Shown: positions 18,420-41,225 of the stretch, one piece after another
Numbering within the stretch: position 1 is the first letter of the stretch
Layout: each line of letters starts with the position of its first letter
Source of the DNA: Methanohalophilus levihalophilus
GTDB lineage: Archaea; Halobacteriota; Methanosarcinia; Methanosarcinales; Methanosarcinaceae
Length of the DNA stretch: 64,000 bases
Assembly: GCF_017874375.1 (NCBI RefSeq)
Contig: NZ_JAGGLK010000002.1
Coordinates: forward strand, 434,001-498,000
Direction: 5' to 3'
Translations under genes and position numbers: made by a program
The notes under the pieces: generated by a model
Databases searched by the model: none
Seen by the model: the letters and a program-made list of their open reading frames with translations, nothing else
What the model was told of the DNA's origin: nothing

Positions 18420-19367
18420 TCACCTGTCCAGCCCTTTAGAATATTGATTGACTAAAAACTCGAGGGTGTTTTCCAGATTGTCTTCCTGTGAGTATAGGCG
18501 AAGGCACTCGTAATACTCGCCTCTGTCTTCGAGGAGTATGTTTATGGGCGGATATCCCCTTTGCAGCAGGGCGTAGTTTAAAAGCAGCCTTCCAACCCTG
18601 CCGTTACCGTCTTCAAATGGGTGGATATATTCAAACTGGTTATGCAGGAGTGCTGCAAGCAGCAACGGTTTCATTTCCTCCCTGTTTTCCCGATACCAGG
18701 AGGTTAGCTCATTGAGCTCTCTTTCAATTTCACCGCTTGGGATTCCCTGATGCACAATGTTTCCCCGGCCATCCCGGATGATAACTTCCACATCCCGCAG
18801 CTTGCCTGCAAAATCCTTGCTCCCCTTAAAACACATTTCATGGAGTTTGAGTATGAGTGAAAGTGACAATTCCTCATCCGTCTGCCTGATGTAGTCTACG
18901 GCTTCAGCAACACCTATAGACTCCAGCTCATCCCCTGTGCGGGCTCGGGAGTTGTCTTCAAGGATGTCATGAACTTCGCTGAAGGAGACAGTTGAGCCTT
19001 CAATTGCATTTGTATTGTAAACAAAGGTTTCAGTGAACGCTTTCCATTGCAGGGGGTCGAGATGTTCTATGTGGATGTCACTGTCGTATTCATTGAGTTT
19101 GAGAATTTCTTTTTTCGTAAGGGAGAACTTAAGCAGGTCTTTCCGGCTATCCAGTTCCTCAAGAATGGATTCTTCCGCCTTCTCTCTGCGTGCCTTGATT
19201 TCAGTGTCACTAAGATTCAGGCCGAGATAGCGGCGAATCTTCCTGGTTTTCCCCCTGACTTTGTAGGAGTGGGTAAGATAGAACTTGGTATTATCTTTCT
19301 GTTTTCGCTTCTCTATGTACACATCAATAAATAGGTGTCCACCTTTCATGTAGGTTTTGGTGGTCAC
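18420..19367 (-). CDS. Fic family AMP-transferase, class II inhibited
   Basis: 315 residues. Fic proteins transfer AMP or other phosphates to target proteins. The catalytic loop HPFEDGNGRVGR is intact at about 249-260, with His249 as the base. An inhibitory helix precedes the Fic core: TNAIEGS at 119-125 fits the [S/T]xxxE[G/N] motif, making this a class II enzyme autoinhibited in cis by Glu123. The N-terminal ~90 residues are a basic leader seen in archaeal Fic proteins, and the C-terminal region is a short winged-helix-like tail. Target unknown. It lies beside the broken hicBA module, in an accessory patch. Confidence 0.85.
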   Translation of the reverse strand: MTTKTYMKGGHLFIDVYIEKRKQKDNTKFYLTHSYKVRGKTRKIRRYLGLNLSDTEIKARREKAEESILEELDSRKDLLKFSLTKKEILKLNEYDSDIHIEHLDPLQWKAFTETFVYNTNAIEGSTVSFSEVHDILEDNSRARTGDELESIGVAEAVDYIRQTDEELSLSLILKLHEMCFKGSKDFAGKLRDVEVIIRDGRGNIVHQGIPSGEIERELNELTSWYRENREEMKPLLLAALLHNQFEYIHPFEDGNGRVGRLLLNYALLQRGYPPINILLEDRGEYYECLRLYSQEDNLENTLEFLVNQYSKGLDR

Positions 19368-19420
19368 CTTTAGGAACTAAATCTCAAAACCTGAAATAAC
19401 AATAAAGCGAAGTGGTAACT

Positions 19421-19628
19421 ATGCAGTATACTATAACTCTTGAAAAGTCCGATGAAGGGGGGGTACTCGGCTCATTGTCTTGAACTTCCAGCTGCAATTA
19501 GTGAAGGGGATACCAGGGAAGAGGCGCTTGAGAATATCAAGGAAGCCATTGAGCTTGTACTTGAGGTGACAAAGGAGCAGGCGCAGGTATTAGGCGAAAT
19601 TGAAAAGGTGGATGTAGCAAGTGCCTAA
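19421..19628 (+). pseudogene. hicB: hicB antitoxin gene, frameshifted
   Basis: ATG 19421 begins MQYTITLEKSDEGG, the usual HicB start. The frame then shifts at a run of seven G (19457-19463). With one G fewer, the protein continues YSAHCLELPAAISEGDTREEALENIKEAIELVLE..., the typical HicB partial RNase H fold. As it stands, translation from the ATG ends a few codons after the G run. The G tract is a classic site for slippage, so phase variation or a sequencing error is possible. The downstream hicA start overlaps its last codons. Confidence 0.8.
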
Positions 19629-25360: not shown

Positions 25361-25370
25361 GATGATTTTG

Positions 25371-25736
25371 ATGACAGTTGAAAGTGAAATAACAAATGCT
25401 GGAATATCTGCTTCAGATGTTGAATCTGTGGTTGATGTTGTCAGAACTATGCGCATAATGCAGGACTACCTCAACGATGAAACAATCCACGGCGTTGCAG
25501 GAATAATGAACCCAATGCTGAAACTGGTGAATAGTATTGCAAGCACGGATCTTGTTGATGTGCTGGAAAGAGGCTTGCAAGATCCTGATCTTGATCGTGC
25601 TCTTATCTCACCTCCAAGGGTTGGCCTGTACGGATTGATTAAGGAGATGGGTGATGAAGATCTCCAGAAGGGGATCGGTATAGCTCTTGAACTCCTGAAA
25701 GCTCTCGGACGAGCTTCCGAAGAAGTTGGAAAGTAA
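25371..25736 (+). CDS. DUF1641 protein, partner of SQR-like enzyme
   Basis: 121 residues; all-helical pattern (VESVVDVVRTMRIMQDYLNDETIHGVAGIMNPMLKLVNSIASTDLVDVLERGL...GLYGLIKEMGDEDLQKGIGIALELLKALGRA). DUF1641 proteins accompany SQR-like and Hdr-like flavoproteins in several archaea and bacteria; their role is unknown. The start is 10 bp after the SQR-like gene stop; an ATG at 25362 in the same frame is possible. Confidence 0.75.
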   Translation: MTVESEITNAGISASDVESVVDVVRTMRIMQDYLNDETIHGVAGIMNPMLKLVNSIASTDLVDVLERGLQDPDLDRALISPPRVGLYGLIKEMGDEDLQKGIGIALELLKALGRASEEVGK

Positions 25737-25794: not shown

Positions 25795-26730
25795 TTATTT
25801 CGGAGTTTTTGGAACCGATGGGTAATTTGTAACAATAATCTCACGCACAGGTCCGCGCTTGTGAGCTTTTGAATTAATGCTTCTTCGGGCTAACACACGC
25901 TCGATGTTATATCCTTTGTACATTTCATCAAAGAAATGATCCTTTGGATTCTCATTTTTCGGATCGGAATTGCTGAGCATAAGCTTTGCTCCCTTTGAAT
26001 CCATACTCCTGTAGAACCCTGCCAGACGATGCTGTTCATTATCATTGAACGAATTCTTTGAGTATGATGTAAAAGTAGATGTCCTGTTTAATGGCCTATA
26101 TGGTGGGTCCAGATACACGAAGCTTTTCTAATCAGCCAGAGGTTCACAGATTGTAAAGTCTCCCCTGTGAATTTCTGTGTTCTGAAGTGTTTCAGATACT
26201 CTTTCCAGGTTTGCAGCATCTAATATTTTTGGATTTTTATATCTTCCAAACGGGACATTGAAGTACCCCTTCGAATTTACCCGGAACAATCCATTGTAGC
26301 ATGTCCGGTTCAGGAAAATAAGCTTTGAAGCCCTTTCAATCCATTTTCTGGAGTATTTTTCGTAGTTGAAAGAGTCCTTATCTTCATTCAACTCAGTGCG
26401 GATTTCATAGTAGAAATTCTCTTTTTCCTGCCCCTCAGTTCCTGAATATGCTATCTGGAGCGAATCCAGCTTATCGACTAATTTGTCAACATCATTTTTA
26501 ATTGAAGAATAGGCCACAATAAGCTCTTCATTAACATCGCATATATGTGCCTCTTCAAAATCAAATTTGTTCATTACATGGAAGAAAACAGCCCCTCCCC
26601 CAACAAATGGTTCGATGTATCTCTGAATTTTCCCACTTTCAATCTCAGGGGGAAAGCGTTTGTCGAATTCTCCGAGAAGTTGTTTTTTCCCGCCAGCCCA
26701 TTTCAGGAAAGGTCTTGCACTGATTTCCAT
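25795..26730 (-). CDS. D12-class adenine methyltransferase (Dam-like) with in-frame TAG at codon 201
   Basis: A single frame of 311 codons broken only by TAG at 26128-26130. Upstream of it are the SAM-binding motif FLKWAGGKKQLL (about 8-19), FVGGGAVFFHVMN and FNVPFGRYKNP. Downstream, in the same frame, come KSFVYLDPPYRPLNRTS with the catalytic DPPY motif (208-211) and HRLAGFYRSMD...LMLSNSDPKNE to the normal C-terminus. Both halves are intact, matching a Dam/DpnM-like N6-adenine methyltransferase (GATC-type by family; target not read). If UAG halts translation, the catalytic motif is lost. If it is read as pyrrolysine, the enzyme is full length. No cognate restriction gene is adjacent, so it would be an orphan methylase. 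Confidence 0.75.
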
Positions 26731-26816: not shown

Positions 26817-27296
26817 TTACTTACTCTTTATTGGTATGCATAACTCTTCTTCAGATTCTGGTTCTTCATTTTTGTACTTCTCCCCCATTATTGCAAAATA
26901 GGGTTTTTCATCTAGCAGGAACTCAGAGTTTGGCAACCATTCTTCGAGAATATATTGATAGGTTTTTGGGACAGAACTTGCTGGTCCTTTGTGCAGGAAA
27001 ACTGCATAAAGTCCTTTTTTGGATACAATGTTTTCCATTCCATTTGGAATATGATCAAAGTCTGTCACTTCGATAGCCGCCCATTTTTCGAAAGTTGCAT
27101 CAGGACTAAAATTGCTAAAAAATGATTTGGGATAAACCTCAATTGAGTAGATATTCTTTCCAATTGTGTTTAGAATTTCCTTCCGTCTTGGCATAAAATT
27201 TGTCCAGAGCTCGTACGTCCTGTTTTCAGAAAATGACATTGTTAACCTTTTTCCAATGAATTTCCTTTCAGGCAACGTTTCGATTCTGGTATCCAT
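26817..27296 (-). CDS. GyrI-like effector-binding domain protein
   Basis: 159 residues. The fold pattern IETLPERKFIGKRLTMSFSENRTYELWTNFMPRR...YSIEVYPKSFF...FEKWAAIEVTDFDHIPNGMENIVSKKGLYAVFLHKGPASSVPKTYQYILEEWLPNSEFLLDEKPYFAIMGEKY is the AraC effector-binding/GyrI-like domain on its own, without a DNA-binding part. Such proteins bind drugs or small hydrophobic molecules. It lies 86 bp upstream of the Dam-like gene on the same strand. Confidence 0.75.
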   Translation of the reverse strand: MDTRIETLPERKFIGKRLTMSFSENRTYELWTNFMPRRKEILNTIGKNIYSIEVYPKSFFSNFSPDATFEKWAAIEVTDFDHIPNGMENIVSKKGLYAVFLHKGPASSVPKTYQYILEEWLPNSEFLLDEKPYFAIMGEKYKNEEPESEEELCIPIKSK

Positions 27297-27528: not shown

Positions 27529-28122
27529 ATGGTTAATTCTGGCATGACTCTCAGTGAAAAAATGGCCAGATGTAAGGAAGCGATTGAGGCTGCAAGAGAA
27601 ATATGTGTGCATCCGTCATTGTTGCAGTATCTCAATGACTGCAGGTTTGCGCTGGCTTCAAAGCGTTTTTCAGGTGGGTCTTCAGTAGCATATGCCTATG
27701 AAGCAGAAGATGCTGTGTACATCCTGCTGATTTTCAGCCGTATCAAGCACAGGGGTGACGGGAGCAGGCTCATCAAGTGTATTATCGAATATGCAAGAGA
27801 AATGGGTTATGATAAAATCTACGTAACAACTTCTCCGTAGTCTCCTTTTAGTTATCCTGCCGGACAATTTTATGTTTCATGTGGGTTCCAGATGATTGGC
27901 TCTGATGAGCTGCAAACTTATTACCGACTGGATGTTAAAAGTGCTCCTTTCAATGAGTGTAGCGACCCTGAGTCAGTCCCCTTAAGTTCTTCATACGGTT
28001 TGCAGGACTATTTTATTATTGGTGCATCAATGCTCAATGTTCTTTTTTTCCCTCAACGCAATGAGCCTCATGTTGTGGGAAGACTCAGGAAAGCAATACT
28101 GAAAAAGGAAAAAAGAAAGTGA
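27529..28122 (+). CDS. GNAT acetyltransferase-like protein with in-frame TAG at codon 104
   Basis: A 197-codon frame broken only by TAG at 27838-27840. Before it, RIKHRGDGSRLIKCIIEYAREMGYDKIYVTTSP carries the acetyl-CoA binding motif A (R-G-x-G-S) and beta-4/alpha-3. After it, the same frame continues SPFSYPAGQFYVSCGFQMIGS, the usual FYxxxGF segment of GNAT proteins, and a ~70-residue tail ending in Lys/Arg. The fold is therefore interrupted in its middle by one amber codon and is otherwise clean. A TATA-like ACATATATACC (about 27475) and GGTGAGG precede ATG 27529. It is read either as a pyrrolysine-containing protein or as a fresh pseudogene. Confidence 0.7.
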
Positions 28123-32012: not shown

Positions 32013-32253
32013 GTTCTCACAGATTACTGTATATTCTGTGATAATATAAAGTTTCCTGTGTAAACTGTGAGACCTTATGAGTTTACTATTAAAACTACGT
32101 TTAAACAAAAGTAACTTTCATCATTTTTAAAATAGCAATCGGTTGCGCAAAATAACCAACCAGAATAATTAGGATTTAATTTTAAAAATTACAGAAGTAC
32201 ATAAATATAATAATCGCGTTTACACTAGTAATTCAGGTGTGTTGGTGGAGAAA

Positions 32254-35200
32254 ATGGTTGCAGGCACTCTTAACGATAGACAACTAAAAGCAGTGACTTA
32301 CACAGAAGGACCGCTCCTTATCCTTGCAGGCCCGGGATCCGGAAAGACACTTACCATAACCGAAAAAGTTGTTGACCTTATTGCCAATGCTATCTCTGCG
32401 GAGAGAATACTGGCACTGACATTCTCAGAGAAGGCAGCCGGTGAGATGCAGGAGAGAATTGAGAGACAGATAGGTATTGGCAGTGGCATTAACGTCTCTA
32501 CTTTCCATTCATTCTGCAATGAACTTATACGACAGTTCCCACTGGACATGGGAATCAGTTATGGGACTAGGCTTATCTCAAAAGAGCATTCTCATGTATG
32601 GGGAATCAGAAACATCGATATCTTTGAATTTGAGAATCTTATCATACCACCGGTTCCATATGACCTGATAACAAGTCTGATGGAAGGTGTATCTCAATTC
32701 CAGGACCATCTGATAGACCCCGATGAGCTTAAAGATTATGTTGATAAGAGACTTTCAGATCCTTCTATTGATGATGAAGAGAAGGATAAGCTTCTGAAAA
32801 TGGCTGACCTTGAAAGGTTCTACAGGCATTATCAGGAGTATAAATGGAACAATAATTTTGTTGATTACGATGATATGATCGCCATGGCCTGCTCTCTTCT
32901 TGAAAAGAATGATGTCATCAGGAATGAAGTGAAGAGCAGATACGATTACATTCTGGTAGATGAGTTTCAGGATACAAATTATGCACAATTGCATCTTGTA
33001 CACCTGCTTGCCGATGGTGGAAATCTGACATGCGTGGCAGACGATGATCAGTGTATATATCGTTTCAGAGGCGCATACCTTTCCAATATCAAGCAACTGA
33101 ATGACCACTATTCTGACCTTGAGAAAGTAGCTCTGGAAGTGAATTACCGCTCTACCAATCAGATAGTCGAGCTATCCAAACAGCTGGTATCCTGCAATCC
33201 AGAAAGGGAGGTCAAAGACTTCAAGTCTCATAATGGTAACGGAGAACTTGTTAAGGTCGTGAAGGCCCCGGACGACGACAGTGAAGCTAAGTGGGTGGCC
33301 AATGAGATTAAGCGACTTTCTAATGAAGAAGGAGTAGAGTATCAGGACATCTACATACTCACTAGGAAGCGTGCAGATGGAGAAAAATTCAGTGATGCTT
33401 TAAAAGCATTGATGATTCCCGTGGAATATGTTGGCTCATTGCAGTTAAGTGATTTTCCGGTTATTCAGGATGCTCTAGCTTATATGAAACTGCTGGCGGC
33501 CCCTTTCAATAATGGGGTTTCTTTCGCAAAGGTTCTTTTCAGGGAAGGTATTACAGAACATAACCTGCAGAAAATAAATATACAGGCACTTCAGGTGAAG
33601 AAGGCAGATCCCACTCAAGGTGATGGGATATATTCTGTTCTTCTGAACGATTTAGATAATATTGATATAACGCAGGCAGAGCTTGTAAAATCCACCCTTT
33701 TGCGTATTGAAGAGGTCATAAGCTACAAGAAGAACCATCTTCCTTCTGATACAGTGAAGTACCTTTTGACTCAAAAAACAGACCTGTATCGCTCTCAGCT
33801 TGCCAGGAATGATGAACATTCCAGACGTAACATCAAGTTGCTGAATTCACTCGTCCAGATGGTGGCTGATTTTGAGCTTGTGGATGGAGGTTCGGAATTT
33901 GAGGATGTCATGGAACATCTGGCCCTTGTGTTCAACATGGATATAGATGAGGGAGAGGCCAGTGAGGACAATACTGTAAAAGTAATGACAATCCATCAAT
34001 CCAAGGGAAAGGAGGCGAAGGTTGTCTTTGTGTGTGACCTTGCAGCTAGGCACCTTCCTTTACAGCACAGGAGAAAACCGTTCACAGTACCATTGGATAT
34101 GGCAAAAGGTGTTCAGAGGAATGCTGATGAGAAAGAGCTGCATCTGGAAGAGGAGCGCAGGCTTGCATATGTTGCCATGACACGTGCAAAGGAAAAGCTG
34201 TATCTAGTCTTCCCTGAGAAATATGCTGCTAATGTGAAGCCTTCCAAACCAAGCCAGTTCCTTGATGAGATAAACTATGATGAAAATCCGTTGATAGAAC
34301 TCATTGAAGCAGCTAAAGCAGAAGTTCACCATGAATCTGTTAGTGTTTCCCTTCTACAAAGGAAAAAAGAAGAGTATGAGAACCTTGTGAGCATGTATGC
34401 CAGACAGGGACAGCTGGATCAGGCCCTTGAGTCCATTGTCATGCTGGCACAGCTGAAGGAACTGGAAAAGAATGGTAATCTTTCAGCCTTTGACCTTGAT
34501 ACTTTCCTGAAGGTCTCCCCGCTGGAACCTACAGAACTGGATGGCCTTGTGGATGGAAAGGTCCCTCCGCTTGTGGACCAGAATATGCGTTTTTCTGCTT
34601 CTAGGATAAAAGAGTACATGGACTGTCCGTTAAAATTCAAATACAATTCCGTGCTTCGAATCCCTACTCCACAGAAAGGACATTTCAATGTAGGTACTAC
34701 TTTGCATGCAGTTTATGAGGAAATGGTAAAGCAGAAGATGCAGGGTAAAAATCCCACGGTTGCTGATGCCAGGACAATGCTCAATGACACATGGGATGGT
34801 TCGGCTTACACTTCAGTGATTCATGAAAAACAGGATAAGAACAAGATGGACAAGATGCTCGACATTTGGTTTGACTACGAGCAGAGTAATTCCAACGAAA
34901 CGATTGATGTTGAACAGCGGTTCGATTTGGAATTGGACAGCAATCATTTTGTGGGTTCAATTGACCGCATCGACAAAACTCCTGATGAAGAGTACATCAT
35001 CGTCGACTACAAAACTGGGAAGAGTACTCTCAGTAAGAAGAAGATGAAAGAGGATGTACAACTGGCTCTTTATTGCTTGGCAGTGAAAGAAAAGTATGGA
35101 AAGTTGCCTGTGCAGGCAGGACACTTCTATGTGCATCCTGATAAGGCCAAAATGGTATTGGTTGATGTTGTTGAAGATGAGGTTGATGCTGTAGTAGAGA

Positions 35201-35313
35201 AGGTGAAAGATGTGGTTTCAGGGATTTTGAGTGAGGACTTTGAAGTTGTTGAGAAACCTGAGTGCAGGTATTGTGACTATGGGGCAGTGTGTGATTGGGT
35301 TAATGGGAAATAA
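32254..35313 (+). CDS. UvrD-family helicase with C-terminal RecB-type nuclease
   Basis: 1019 residues. Superfamily 1A helicase: LNDRQLKAVTY Q-motif, Walker A AGPGSGKT (25-32), LVDEFQDTNYAQ motif II, ADDDQCIYRFRGA motif III, and LHLEEERRLAYVAMTRAKEKLYL near 630-660. The C-terminal ~200 residues carry a PD-(D/E)XK nuclease of the RecB/Cas4/AddB kind: THLHAVYEEM-like His, FVGSIDRIDKTPDEEYIIVDYKTGKS, then VQLALYCL. Cysteines in MDCPLKFKY and ECRYCDYGAVC suit a 4Fe-4S cluster. It likely unwinds and degrades DNA. ATG 32254 is preferred (GGTGGAG upstream) over GTG 32239. It leads the defence block on the same strand, 79 bp before the SNF2 gene, and could act with it or in repair. Confidence 0.88.
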   Translation: MVAGTLNDRQLKAVTYTEGPLLILAGPGSGKTLTITEKVVDLIANAISAERILALTFSEKAAGEMQERIERQIGIGSGINVSTFHSFCNELIRQFPLDMGISYGTRLISKEHSHVWGIRNIDIFEFENLIIPPVPYDLITSLMEGVSQFQDHLIDPDELKDYVDKRLSDPSIDDEEKDKLLKMADLERFYRHYQEYKWNNNFVDYDDMIAMACSLLEKNDVIRNEVKSRYDYILVDEFQDTNYAQLHLVHLLADGGNLTCVADDDQCIYRFRGAYLSNIKQLNDHYSDLEKVALEVNYRSTNQIVELSKQLVSCNPEREVKDFKSHNGNGELVKVVKAPDDDSEAKWVANEIKRLSNEEGVEYQDIYILTRKRADGEKFSDALKALMIPVEYVGSLQLSDFPVIQDALAYMKLLAAPFNNGVSFAKVLFREGITEHNLQKINIQALQVKKADPTQGDGIYSVLLNDLDNIDITQAELVKSTLLRIEEVISYKKNHLPSDTVKYLLTQKTDLYRSQLARNDEHSRRNIKLLNSLVQMVADFELVDGGSEFEDVMEHLALVFNMDIDEGEASEDNTVKVMTIHQSKGKEAKVVFVCDLAARHLPLQHRRKPFTVPLDMAKGVQRNADEKELHLEEERRLAYVAMTRAKEKLYLVFPEKYAANVKPSKPSQFLDEINYDENPLIELIEAAKAEVHHESVSVSLLQRKKEEYENLVSMYARQGQLDQALESIVMLAQLKELEKNGNLSAFDLDTFLKVSPLEPTELDGLVDGKVPPLVDQNMRFSASRIKEYMDCPLKFKYNSVLRIPTPQKGHFNVGTTLHAVYEEMVKQKMQGKNPTVADARTMLNDTWDGSAYTSVIHEKQDKNKMDKMLDIWFDYEQSNSNETIDVEQRFDLELDSNHFVGSIDRIDKTPDEEYIIVDYKTGKSTLSKKKMKEDVQLALYCLAVKEKYGKLPVQAGHFYVHPDKAKMVLVDVVEDEVDAVVEKVKDVVSGILSEDFEVVEKPECRYCDYGAVCDWVNGK

Positions 35314-35392
35314 ATGATAAAGTTTTAACACTTTATCTCATGAAATAGATATAATAAATCTTTTAGTGCTGGAAAAATAGGCGGTTGAAAAG

Positions 35393-38300
35393 ATGCAAAT
35401 ACTAAACAATGTAACTGATCTTTGGGGCGATGATCTTAAAACATCATTTAAGTCTAATACAAAACTTAAAATTGCCGCCTCCTGTTTTTCTATTTATGCA
35501 TATGAAGCTTTAAAAAATGAGTTAGAAAAGATTGAATCTCTGGAATTCATTTTTACTTCTCCTACTTTTGTAGCAAATGCGGTTACAGACAAGTTTTCTA
35601 AAGAGCGCAGAGAATTTCATATTCCTAAGCAGAAACGTGAAAGAGATCTGTACGGAAGTGACTTTGAAATTCAACTCAAAAACAAACTTACTCAAAGAGC
35701 GATTGCTAAAGAGTGTGCAGATTGGATCAGGAGAAAAGCAACTTTTTGTTCTAATTCTACAAAAGCTCCAATGCAACAGTTTGCTTGTCTGAGTTCAGAT
35801 GACGAAAGTGTTGTTTACATGCCTTTGCATGGTTTTACTGCCGTTGATCTCGGATATAGCCAGGGAGATGCAGTTTCAAATTTCATCAACAAATTTGAAG
35901 ATACTGCATCAACTAAAACGTGGCTGGAGCTTTTCAATCAAATATGGGAAGATGATTCCAAGCTGCAGAATGTTACAGACAATATATGCACTCATATTGA
36001 ATCGGTTTATAAGGAAAATTCTCCTGAAAAAATCTATTTCCTGATGCTTTACAACATTTTTAATGAATTCCTTGAAGACATAAATGAGGATGTACTCCCC
36101 AATGATCTGACTGGCTACAAGGATAGTGTTGTATGGAATAAACTTTTCAATTTCCAAAAAGATGCAGCTACAGGAATCATTAATCGACTGGAGCAATTCA
36201 ATGGATGCATTCTGGCTGACAGTGTTGGACTCGGTAAAACGTTTACTGCATTGGCAGTCATAAAATATTATGAGCTTCGCAATCGTTCTGTACTTGTACT
36301 TTGTCCAAAGAAACTTGAAGATAACTGGCAAACTTATAGAAATAATTACAAAACAAACATACTGGCAAAAGATCGTTTAAATTATGATCTGCTCTTTCAC
36401 ACTGATCTTTCACGTAAATCAGGAAAGTCTTCGGGCTTGGATTTAAAAAAGATCAACTGGGGTAACTATGACCTTGTAGTCATAGATGAATCTCATAATT
36501 TCCGTAACAATGATGCTTATAAAGATAAAGAAACCAGATACCAGAAATTAATGAACTCTGTTATTCGTGCTGGAGTTAAAACAAAAATATTGATGCTTTC
36601 CGCTACACCGGTGAATAATAGATTCAATGACCTTCGAAACCAACTTGCTCTTGCTTATGAAGGAGAATCTGAAAATTTAAGTGAAAAGCTAAAGACAGGT
36701 AAAAGCATTGAAGAAATATTTCGAAATGCACAGACCGCTTTTAATCACTGGTCTAAATTATCCCCTGAAAATCGAACAGCAAAAACAATTCTGGATGCTC
36801 TTGATTTTGATTTTTTTGAATTACTGGACAGTGTTACCATTGCTCGTTCCAGAAAGCATATTGAGACTTTTTACGATACTAGTGAGATAGGAAAGTTTCC
36901 ACAAAGACTTAAACCCTTATCATTTCGCTGTGCTTTAACGGAACGCTCCGATGTAATGGGTTTCAATGAAATTTATGAGCAGTTATCTTTGCTCAAACTT
37001 TCTGTTTATGCTCCTGTCAACTACATTCTTCCGAGCCGCCTGAAAATATATGAAGAAATCTATGATACCGCTGTTGAAGGTGGAAAGGGTAAACTTCGAC
37101 AGGCTGATCGTGAAAAAAGTCTCCAGTCCCTTATGACAACAAACCTCCTGAAGCGTCTTGAAAGTTCAGTTGAATCTTTCAGACTGACTCTTAGGTCTTT
37201 GCAGGATAATAATAAGAACATGCTTGCTAAAATAGCAGAATTCAAGCGTTTTGGATCAGACCTTTCCATTCATGATCTTACTGATTCTCTGGAGGAATTA
37301 GAAGCTGAGGATGACGATCTTACTGGCTTGGATGACTTTACGACAAAAGGAAAAGTTCAGATCGATCTTGCTGACATGGACCTGCAATCATGGGAATATG
37401 ACCTAAAAGCAGACCTTACTATTATATCGCAACTTCTAGCCGAAATGGAAAAGATCACTCCAGAGGAGGATTTAAAACTTCAGCATATCAAAAAGCACAT
37501 ACTGGATAAAATTCAGAACCCGTTAAATCCCGGCAATAAAAAAGTAATCGTATTCACCGCATTTGCAGATACGGCTGATTACCTTTATGCAAACCTGTCC
37601 AGGGAATTTTTTGATATGTCTATTCACACAGGTAAAGTAACAGGAAAAGATTCTCCAAAAACCACAGTGAATAAGGGCTATGATTTTCAATCTTTGTTGA
37701 CAATATTTTCTCCAATTTCAAAAGAAAAAACTCTCATACTTCCAGAGGACCCGAATGAAATTGATATTTTAATTGCAACTGATTGTATATCTGAGGGGCA
37801 AAACCTTCAGGATTGTGATTATCTCGTTAATTATGACATTCACTGGAATCCGGTTCGTATCATTCAACGTTTCGGTCGTATAGACAGGATTGGTTCTCCT
37901 AATGAATATATTCAACTGGTCAACTATTGGCCGGATATTTCGTTAGATGAATATATCAATCTAAAAGAGCGCGTGGAAAATCGAATGCATATAGTGGACA
38001 TTACTGGAACCGGGGATGATAATGTTCTCTCAGCGCATGCTAATGACGTAGCATATAGGAAGGAACAACTCCGTCGTCTACAGGATGAAGTAATTGAACT
38101 TGAGGATCTTAAAACAGGTGTCAACATTACTGACCTTGGATTGAACGATTTCCGGATGGACCTGCTGAACTATATTAAAGAAAATGGAGATATGGACCAT
38201 TTACCCAACGGCTTACATGCCTTGATACCATCCAATGAGGAAGCAGGATTGTTACCAGGAGTTATTTTTACCCTCCGTAACCACAATTCAGGTGTAAATA

Positions 38301-38665
38301 TTAATCAGCATAATCGCCTGCATCCATACTATCTTGTCTATATTAATGATGACGGAGAAATTATTACGGATCATACGGAAGTAAAATCATTGTTAGACCG
38401 TCTAAGAAGCAGCTGTAAAGGGCTTGATAGTCCGGTCTATGATATATGCAAACAGTTTAATTCTAACACCAATGATGGGCGGGAAATGAATCATTATTCT
38501 GATCTACTTGACCAGGCAATTCGATCAATGATAGAGGTGAAAGAAGACAAGGATATTGACAGTCTTTTCTCCAGCGTCAATACTACGGCTTTGGTTGATA
38601 CAATTAAAGGATTGGATGATTTTGAGCTAATTTCTTTCCTTGTAATACAGGAGAATCCTTCATGA
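35393..38665 (+). CDS. SNF2-family helicase with PLD-like N-terminus
   Basis: 1090 residues. The first ~170 residues (LKIAASCFSIYAYEALKNELEKIESLEFIFTSPTF...) look like a PLD-like domain often fused to such helicases, without a clear HKD motif. Superfamily 2 motifs follow: FNFQKDAATGI, Walker A ADSVGLGKT (about 275-283), VVIDESHNFRN (about 363, DESH), MLSATPVNN, ATDCISEGQNLQDCDYLVNYDIHWNPVRIIQRFGRIDRIG (about 800-833). A long insertion with coiled-coil lies between the helicase lobes. The ATGA overlap with the DUF4391 gene shows tight coupling. DNA translocase of a restriction-like system is the likely role. Confidence 0.87.
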   Translation: MQILNNVTDLWGDDLKTSFKSNTKLKIAASCFSIYAYEALKNELEKIESLEFIFTSPTFVANAVTDKFSKERREFHIPKQKRERDLYGSDFEIQLKNKLTQRAIAKECADWIRRKATFCSNSTKAPMQQFACLSSDDESVVYMPLHGFTAVDLGYSQGDAVSNFINKFEDTASTKTWLELFNQIWEDDSKLQNVTDNICTHIESVYKENSPEKIYFLMLYNIFNEFLEDINEDVLPNDLTGYKDSVVWNKLFNFQKDAATGIINRLEQFNGCILADSVGLGKTFTALAVIKYYELRNRSVLVLCPKKLEDNWQTYRNNYKTNILAKDRLNYDLLFHTDLSRKSGKSSGLDLKKINWGNYDLVVIDESHNFRNNDAYKDKETRYQKLMNSVIRAGVKTKILMLSATPVNNRFNDLRNQLALAYEGESENLSEKLKTGKSIEEIFRNAQTAFNHWSKLSPENRTAKTILDALDFDFFELLDSVTIARSRKHIETFYDTSEIGKFPQRLKPLSFRCALTERSDVMGFNEIYEQLSLLKLSVYAPVNYILPSRLKIYEEIYDTAVEGGKGKLRQADREKSLQSLMTTNLLKRLESSVESFRLTLRSLQDNNKNMLAKIAEFKRFGSDLSIHDLTDSLEELEAEDDDLTGLDDFTTKGKVQIDLADMDLQSWEYDLKADLTIISQLLAEMEKITPEEDLKLQHIKKHILDKIQNPLNPGNKKVIVFTAFADTADYLYANLSREFFDMSIHTGKVTGKDSPKTTVNKGYDFQSLLTIFSPISKEKTLILPEDPNEIDILIATDCISEGQNLQDCDYLVNYDIHWNPVRIIQRFGRIDRIGSPNEYIQLVNYWPDISLDEYINLKERVENRMHIVDITGTGDDNVLSAHANDVAYRKEQLRRLQDEVIELEDLKTGVNITDLGLNDFRMDLLNYIKENGDMDHLPNGLHALIPSNEEAGLLPGVIFTLRNHNSGVNINQHNRLHPYYLVYINDDGEIITDHTEVKSLLDRLRSSCKGLDSPVYDICKQFNSNTNDGREMNHYSDLLDQAIRSMIEVKEDKDIDSLFSSVNTTALVDTIKGLDDFELISFLVIQENPS

Positions 38666-39324
38666 GTGTCCTTTATGATTTCCCTGAACAGGCAAAATTT
38701 GGACGTGTGCTTTCAAAGAGTAAGATATATGAGCATGCCAATCCGACTTCCAGAGTAAAGGATATGTTTGTCAAAGAAGTGGAAAAGATCACGTGGACAC
38801 ATAAGCTTTCTTCGTCAACGATCAATCTTCCTGTAAGTGATGAAGTTACTGAAATACAGATATTTACTATTATTCTCAGGACTGAAACTATCTCTGAAGA
38901 GGTTTTACGGACAATCGATAAAGCCATACCTTCGCCTATCATTTTCCACCTCGATTACAGGAAAAGAAGCAGATATATGGCAGCTTACAAACGGCCCAGT
39001 GAAGCCGACAGAAGTAAGTGGGTTGTCAGCAGTTACTTCGAAACTGAATGGATGGACGATAATTCTGAAAAAACTTCACTACCTGTTGTTTTGAACATGG
39101 GTGCACTCTACCAGGCTCTTATCAAAGATATTGTATCTCTTCCTTTCAGGAAAAGTGAAACTCTGGAAGAGCTGGTTAAAAGAATGGATGAATTACGCAC
39201 CAAAGAACGTGAAGCAGCAAAAATAGAATCCCGCATAAAAAAAGAAAAACAATTTAATCGCAGGGTTGAATTAAACAGTTCACTCAACGAATTGAAACAG
39301 GAAATTCAAGATTTAAAGTGTTAA
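38662..39324 (+). CDS. DUF4391 protein
   Basis: 220 residues. Pattern YDFPEQAKFGRVLSKSKIYEHANPTSRVKDMFVKEVEKITWTHKLSSSTINLP...EIQIFTIILR...IDKAIPSPIIFHLDY is the DUF4391 family, usually encoded between an SNF2-like helicase and a Mod-type methylase. The C-terminal 50 residues form a Lys/Glu-rich coiled coil (EREAAKIESRIKKEKQFNRRVELNSSLNELKQEI). The conserved mid region KITWTHKL and acidic residues could suit nucleic-acid binding. Function unknown. Start overlaps the SNF2 stop by four bases; Mod starts 29 bp later. Confidence 0.82.
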   Translation: MSVLYDFPEQAKFGRVLSKSKIYEHANPTSRVKDMFVKEVEKITWTHKLSSSTINLPVSDEVTEIQIFTIILRTETISEEVLRTIDKAIPSPIIFHLDYRKRSRYMAAYKRPSEADRSKWVVSSYFETEWMDDNSEKTSLPVVLNMGALYQALIKDIVSLPFRKSETLEELVKRMDELRTKEREAAKIESRIKKEKQFNRRVELNSSLNELKQEIQDLKC

Positions 39325-39353
39325 TCATTGCTGATGGATAAAGGAGTCTTATA

Positions 39354-41225
39354 ATGGATAAATTGAAAATGCATAGCCCAAACTTTGCTGAAGGAAATAT
39401 TGCAAAACTTGAGGCAATGTTCCCAAATTGTGTTACCGAGTCAAAGGATGAAAATGGTAATCTGAAAAAATCAATTGATTTTGACCTCTTAAAGCAGGAA
39501 CTCTCAACACATATAGTGGATGGTCCACAGGAACGTTATCAACTTAACTGGCCAGGTAAACGGGAAGCTTTACTCACAGCCAATGCCCCTATTGCTAAGA
39601 CTCTCCGGCCATGTCATGAGGAAAGCATTGATTTTGATACTACAGAGAATCTTTTTATTGAAGGCGACAATCTTGATGCTCTAAAGCTACTTCTGGAAAA
39701 TTATCTTGGCAAAGTGAAGATGATCTATATTGATCCTCCTTATAACAAAGGTAAGGATTTTATCTACGCTGATAACTTTGCTGAGTCTATTGATAATTAC
39801 TTATTAGAATCTGGGCAGAAAGATGAAGAAGGTAACCGTCTTGTTCCAAATCCAGATTCGAACGGACGTTTTCACTCAGACTGGCTTTCCATGATGTATT
39901 CTCGTCTAAAAATGGCAAGGAATCTCCTCAAAGAGGATGGTGTAATTTTTATTAGTATTGATGAAAGTGAAGTGCATAATCTTGTGAAAATATGTGAAGA
40001 GATTTTTGGTGGAAAATCTGTAGAACAATACATTTGGGATGTTCGTGAAGATGGAACAATGCCAAAAACTGCAAAGAAAACAGTTCGAAAAGAACACGAG
40101 TATATTATTGCAGCTTTCAAGCAAGAAACACTAAAAAGATTTTCTAAATATTCCTCATTCAAATATATAGATAACAATGAGTGGAGTAATGCGGATAATG
40201 ATCCTCGAGGGCCATGGATGTCTGCAAATATTAGTAGAGGTGCAGGCAAAGGGACTGGTGGAAGTAAATCATACGTAATAACCAATCCAGCAGGAATAAG
40301 TTTTGATCGTAACTGGTCAGTAACTGAAGATGAATTTTATGAATTACTAAATGATCAAAGAATATTCTTTGCAGATGATGGAAAAGGTGTACCACGTAAA
40401 AAAATATTTCAAAATGAACCTGTTGAATCTGTTCAATCATCGTTATTCGAAAAACTAAAAAGTTCACAATCTGCATCTTCATATTTGCAAAATTTATTAG
40501 GAGATATAGATTTTGATTATCCGAAGCCAGTAGATTTGCTTGATAGAATTATTCAAATATCAACAAAATCCGATGATATTATATTAGACTTTTTTGCTGG
40601 AACTTCAACAACTGCCCATGCAACAATGAGTGTTAATGCCAAAGACAATGGAAAGCGCAAATTCATTATGGTACAGTTAGATGAAAAATGTGATGAAAAG
40701 TCTAATGCTTTCAAGCTTGGTTACAAAACCATTGCTGAAATAAGCAAAGAACGTATCCGTCGTGCAGGAAAGAAGATCAAAGAAGAGAATCCAGAAAAAA
40801 CCAAAAATCTCGACATTGGTTTCCGTGTTCTTAAAGTAGACAGCAGCAACATGGAGGATGTCTATTATACCCCTGATGACACAAAACAGACGGTTCTTTT
40901 CAATAATACTGACAACATCAAAAAGGACCGTACTTCTGAAGATCTGCTTTTCCAGGTGCTACTGGACTGGGGTGTAGATCTTACACTTCCTATTTCAAAA
41001 GAAGTAATTCTTGACAGAGAAGTTTATTTTGTTGATGGAAATGCCCTTGCTGCCTGTTTTGTGAAGGATGGTGGAATTTCTGAAGATTTCTGTAAAGAGC
41101 TGGCAAAAAGGGAACCATTGCGTGTGGTATTCCGGGATTCCGGATTTGCAGATGACAGTGTGAAGATCAATGTGGAACAGATCTTCAAACTCATGAGTCC
41201 TCATACGGACGTGAAAACGATCTAA
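39354..41225 (+). CDS. mod: Type III restriction-modification methyltransferase (Mod)
   Basis: 623 residues. N6-adenine methyltransferase of the beta class: motif IV DPPYNKG (from residue 127) precedes motif [13 protein letters not shown] (about 412). The leader [20 protein letters not shown] and [30 protein letters not shown] is standard for type III Mod, and the variable centre (about 220-350) is the target-recognition domain. The C-terminal ~130 residues are shared by Mod subunits. With Res it forms the R-M complex; the recognition site cannot be read. Res begins 11 bases after its stop. Confidence 0.92.

Follow-up and report, generated by a model that had tools for sequence, protein, structure and literature searches.

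Is the single TAG that interrupts the dam gene of the salt-loving, methane-producing archaeon Methanohalophilus levihalophilus a sense codon read as pyrrolysine, a nonsense mutation that has silenced the gene, or part of a device adjusting DNA methylation to the metabolism of methylamines? The gene lies in a window of 64 kb (the whole stretch of DNA first examined), and an earlier note had described it as a complete Dam-like frame having one TAG seven codons before the DPPY motif and no other lesion, a description fully borne out by the open reading frame, by profile searches and by homology. The explanation that we hold with good confidence is that a working dam has undergone a recent, near-neutral change of a sense codon to TAG and that the resulting UAG would be decoded as pyrrolysine to yield a full-length enzyme; we infer both the incorporation of pyrrolysine at codon 201 and the neutrality of the change from sequence comparisons. 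A literature search found no paper joining pyrrolysine, an adenine methyltransferase and a methanogen.

The dam gene and its product

The frame runs on the minus strand from an ATG at 26730 to a TAA at 25795 (25795..26730), contains one internal TAG and, when this is counted as a residue, specifies a protein of 311 amino acids belonging to the Dam family (D12 class) of N6-adenine DNA methyltransferases. The profile TIGR00571 (“dam”) is matched by residues 6–302 with 300 bits against a cut-off of 115, and PF02086 by residues 11–285 with 217 bits against a cut-off of 22; both matches span the TAG and, taken singly, the halves on either side of it each match their own part of the profile. The N-terminal SAM-binding motifs WAGGK (residues 11–15) and EPFVGGG (residues 40–46) are intact, and in the DPPY catalytic motif (residues 208–211; 26098..26109, minus strand), which is located 3′ of the TAG, D208, P210 and Y211 are invariant in an alignment of 31 sequences.

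An AlphaFold model built from 31 sequences, with Lys placed at the TAG codon, has a mean pLDDT of 87.8 and matches DpnM (2dpm) and E. coli Dam (2g1p); the identity with the best solved structures (DpnM 2dpm; E. coli Dam 2g1p and 4rtm) is 30–34%, the likeness concerning both fold and family. E. coli Dam and DpnM methylate the adenine of GATC, and neither is known to have an in-frame TAG. The best PADLOC model for the M. levihalophilus gene is “orphan methyltransferase” and no restriction gene adjoins it at the locus. The gene is probably a functional, solitary Dam-like DNA adenine methyltransferase gene, the activity of its product being predicted from its motifs and relatives.

The nearest relative outside this genome is a Methanohalophilus MAG (L041; the matching genome, G007, is of the same genus). 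As to the origin of dam, in five Methanohalophilus genomes lacking it, a conserved flanking gene of 124 amino acids (25362..25736, plus strand, in the window) lies ~0.1 kb from a GNAT-like gene, thereby marking the empty site, whereas in this genome and in G007 dam sits between these two flanks; it follows that a single gain of dam probably took place, before the two Methanohalophilus species parted from their common ancestor. Upstream of dam there is a gene for a GyrI-like small-molecule-binding protein (26817..27296, minus strand) that is absent from the other members of the genus searched. The window also contains a defence-like cluster (32239–41225, plus strand) consisting of a UvrD-type helicase with a GajB-like match, an HKD/SNF2 helicase and a type III methyltransferase.

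The in-frame TAG at codon 201

The TAG (26128..26130, minus strand), a predicted pyrrolysine codon, occupies codon 201, seven residues ahead of DPPY. In the orthologue of the sister species, the sole close one, this codon is GAG (Glu), one base away from TAG, and the whole frame is homologous to that orthologue with 77% identity, the similarity being alike before and after the TAG. The dN/dS ratio relative to the sister species is 0.06 before the TAG and 0.07 after it, rough values given that dS is near saturation, which point to constraint on both parts of the gene, mostly dating from before the TAG arose.

Dam matches were found in 16 of the 112 genomes of the family that were searched, and the TAG is present only in the M. 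levihalophilus copy. None of about 90 aligned relatives has a stop at this position, where 14 different residues occur (K in 31 cases, then E, P, S, A, D, G, T, N, Y, V, R, Q and I), the alignment being approximate close to codon 201 where there are gaps. In the AlphaFold model, codon 201 falls in a loop between a helix (residues 192–198) and the strand (residues 203–207) that leads into DPPY. As for a viral or plasmid copy having the same TAG, among the matches listed there are only distant relatives with no more than 50% identity.

These data bear directly on the possibility that UAG simply terminates translation, leaving a fragment of 200 amino acids devoid of DPPY and making dam a very young pseudogene. 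The presence of a sense codon in the sister species and the lack of a TAG here in any other homologue from the 112 genomes favor such a nonsense mutation, and the sporadic distribution of dam in the family, implying that the gene is dispensable, as well as the presence of aRF1 point in the same direction. Against this, apart from its one TAG the frame is intact and no second lesion has accumulated. The earlier note had regarded a sense codon in other strains together with further decay of this copy as evidence against decoding; the former was indeed found, in the sister species, but the latter is absent. It must be added that a very recent nonsense mutation, too young to be followed by decay, would look identical, given the GAG of the sister species. 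Overall, we consider termination unlikely as an explanation, also in view of the genomic evidence presented below.

The same data also bear on the idea that the UAG of dam is a selected switch coupling DNA methylation to growth on methylamines, whether by way of pyrrolysine supply or because tRNA-Pyl and aRF1 compete for the codon. Should the UAG be decoded, full-length Dam does need pyrrolysine and the alternative product is a fragment lacking the catalytic motif, so that the dependence on pyrrolysine supply suggested in the earlier note would hold in a mechanical sense. A regulatory or selected role, on the other hand, finds no support: the only close orthologue has no TAG, the site is a variable loop position, no PYLIS-like or otherwise unusual RNA structure was found downstream of the TAG (z 0.58) and many unrelated genes have a TAG as well. 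A switch deserves very little credence; a near-neutral substitution fits the data better than a supply-sensing device.

The pyrrolysine machinery

Reading of UAG as pyrrolysine requires the pyl genes, and these were found to be complete: pylS, the gene for tRNA-Pyl (with a CUA anticodon), pylB, pylC and pylD are intact and clustered on contig C2 at about 319–324 kb (L003). A genome devoid of pyl genes, which the earlier note had named as grounds for rejecting the pyrrolysine reading, is therefore not what is seen. Two of the three mtmB genes carry one in-frame TAG. The genome also has one full-length copy of aRF1, and recognition of UAG by this factor may persist, in which case some or most of the Dam product would be truncated. 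Within the congeneric species Methanohalophilus portucalensis, pyrrolysine was detected by mass spectrometry in MttB (PMC4928046).

A side observation concerns pylB itself (L003 6243–7298, minus strand), which ends in TAG, the next stop being 39 codons further on in a stretch overlapping pylC; given a supply of pyrrolysine, translation could run on and yield a longer PylB.

TAG as a probable sense codon in the genome

The usage of stop codons was analysed in a sample of 448 kb comprising the 64-kb window and 20 further stretches. TAG terminates 3–5% of the open reading frames compared to 17% of the stop triplets in the background, and of the frames of at least 300 amino acids only 5 out of 160 end in TAG versus the 17% expected (p about 3e-8). 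Since pylTSBCD is intact, two mtmB genes contain TAG and TAG terminators are few, TAG is most probably read as pyrrolysine in this genome, at least partly.

Frames interrupted by a single stop, open otherwise and with at least 50 codons on either side of the stop, number 13 with TAG, 20 with TAA and 14 with TGA. When the 13 TAG frames and, as controls, 25 longer TAA/TGA frames were scanned with Pfam, a domain was found to cross the stop in 4/13 of the former and 0/25 of the latter (Fisher p 0.010, or 0.028 without dam), TAG frames having no Pfam match, and one with only a 22-residue repeat over the TAG, being scored as non-crossing. The halves of the control frames resemble separate adjacent genes. 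The domain-crossing TAG frames are dam, a CcmF-like gene, a class-I methyltransferase and a FemAB/GNAT protein; an additional case, falling under the length filter, is a DUF2119 gene whose TAG is 43 codons before the gene end.

The single TAGs of the CcmF-like (L005 7918–8856, plus strand) and DUF2119 (L006 9522–10100, plus strand) genes occur in this genome only; their orthologues in other Methanohalophilus have no stop there, with Ser, Ala or Thr at the CcmF-like site and Glu at the DUF2119 site. The single-TAG FemAB-like gene has no orthologue elsewhere in the genus. An apparent stop in L056 was rejected, being the terminator of the gene itself.

The reading of the dam TAG as plain nonsense is opposed by the intact pyl system, by the enrichment of TAG over TAA and TGA inside domains and by the presence of TAG in conserved genes of this genome, all of which, along with a conserved TAG 1.7 kb from that of dam, make UAG a poor terminator here.

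Two further frames may be mentioned in their own right. That of a PAS/GAF histidine kinase (L007 352–3087, minus strand) has three in-frame TAGs, at codons 438, 449 and 753, with domains on both sides, and is either a multi-pyrrolysine protein or a decaying gene; that of a Fic-family protein (window 18420–19475, minus strand) has a possible N-terminal extension containing TAGs.

A conserved TAG in the neighboring gene

The GNAT-like gene flanking dam (27529..28122, plus strand), so called from a reading by eye because no Pfam family matched it at E 0.001, has an in-frame TAG at codon 104 (27838..27840, plus strand), 1.7 kb away from that of dam. Codon 104 is TAG in the sister species too, where a continuation of 93 residues that is 67% identical follows it, whereas the codon is Arg (AGA or AGG) in five other Methanohalophilus, and Arg and Lys in two orthologues from other genera. 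Since between the two species the synonymous sites are near saturation (dS being saturated in the continuation), the TAG has persisted for long while the frame downstream stayed open. Nothing else at the locus speaks as strongly for UAG being a sense codon in this clade; the conserved codon is also a further argument against nonsense in dam, and it makes the GNAT-like product a better candidate pyrrolysine protein than Dam.

A one-base error of sequencing or assembly at codon 201 has also to be considered, insofar as a single base decides between Glu and TAG. Nevertheless, the difference is a substitution whereas the usual error is an indel, the assembly consists of 5 contigs with 98.8% completeness, the other TAGs follow the same pattern and the TAG of the GNAT-like gene was found independently in a second assembly, so that an error is an exceedingly remote eventuality.

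Proposed decoding of the dam UAG

The near-neutral reading can be described as follows. After dam had arrived at its site in the ancestor of the two Methanohalophilus species, a one-base change would have converted codon 201 from a sense codon, presumably GAG judging from the sister species, to TAG, hitting the variable loop between the helix and the strand leading into DPPY. Because the genome has a complete tRNA-Pyl/PylS/PylBCD system, ribosomes would insert pyrrolysine at the UAG, either fully or with aRF1 as a competitor, and complete full-length Dam; if they stopped there instead, the product would be a 200-residue fragment lacking the catalytic motif. Most likely the change was near-neutral and was tolerated through the reading of UAG as pyrrolysine. 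A bolder scheme, in which pyrrolysine-poor growth truncates Dam before its catalytic motif so that genome methylation mirrors methylamine metabolism or reacts to it, the GNAT-like protein being a second pyrrolysine protein outside this metabolism, appears quite improbable.

Relationship to known pyrrolysine proteins

The closest parallel is Thg1, the tRNA-His guanylyltransferase, which in Methanosarcina acetivorans contains pyrrolysine (Heinemann et al. 2009, as cited in PMC3639795 and PMC8211752) and for which a neutral appearance of the residue is argued in PMC3639795. As far as these accounts of Thg1 go, both genes have a lineage-specific in-frame TAG, are unrelated to the use of methylamines and have a TAG for which a neutral origin is argued; they differ in that Thg1 acts on tRNA whereas the dam product is a DNA methyltransferase and its pyrrolysine is predicted from sequence. 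By analogy, the route of the sense-to-TAG change in dam most likely resembles that described, in the same accounts, for Thg1. Of the features by which pyrrolysine proteins are recognized, coding sequence that is homologous both before and after the TAG and the lack of any other lesion are found in dam; conservation of the TAG among orthologues, a supporting feature that is not required in neutral cases such as Thg1, is not, although the neighboring GNAT-like gene does show it.

With MtmB, MtbB and MttB dam shares the in-frame UAG, the pyl system and, as regards mtmB, the genome; in those proteins, however, pyrrolysine is catalytic and conserved, whereas in Dam it would occupy a variable loop position. 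Kivenson et al., in Science in 2025, reportedly described an archaeal code in which all TAG codons mean pyrrolysine. The probable sense use of TAG and the scarcity of TAG terminators seen here, judged from the 448-kb sample, are in line with such a code.

Dependence on the pyrrolysine system is not new in itself, since some other proteins are known to show it. The present data enlarge the set of likely pyrrolysine proteins with no part in methylamine metabolism by a DNA-modifying enzyme and by the adjacent GNAT-like protein, whose TAG is conserved. Standard gene finders would call both genes truncated. Methylation by Dam could act as a whole-genome reporter of the efficiency with which UAG is read, and the findings support the view of UAG as a drifting sense codon in the genomes of Methanohalophilus.
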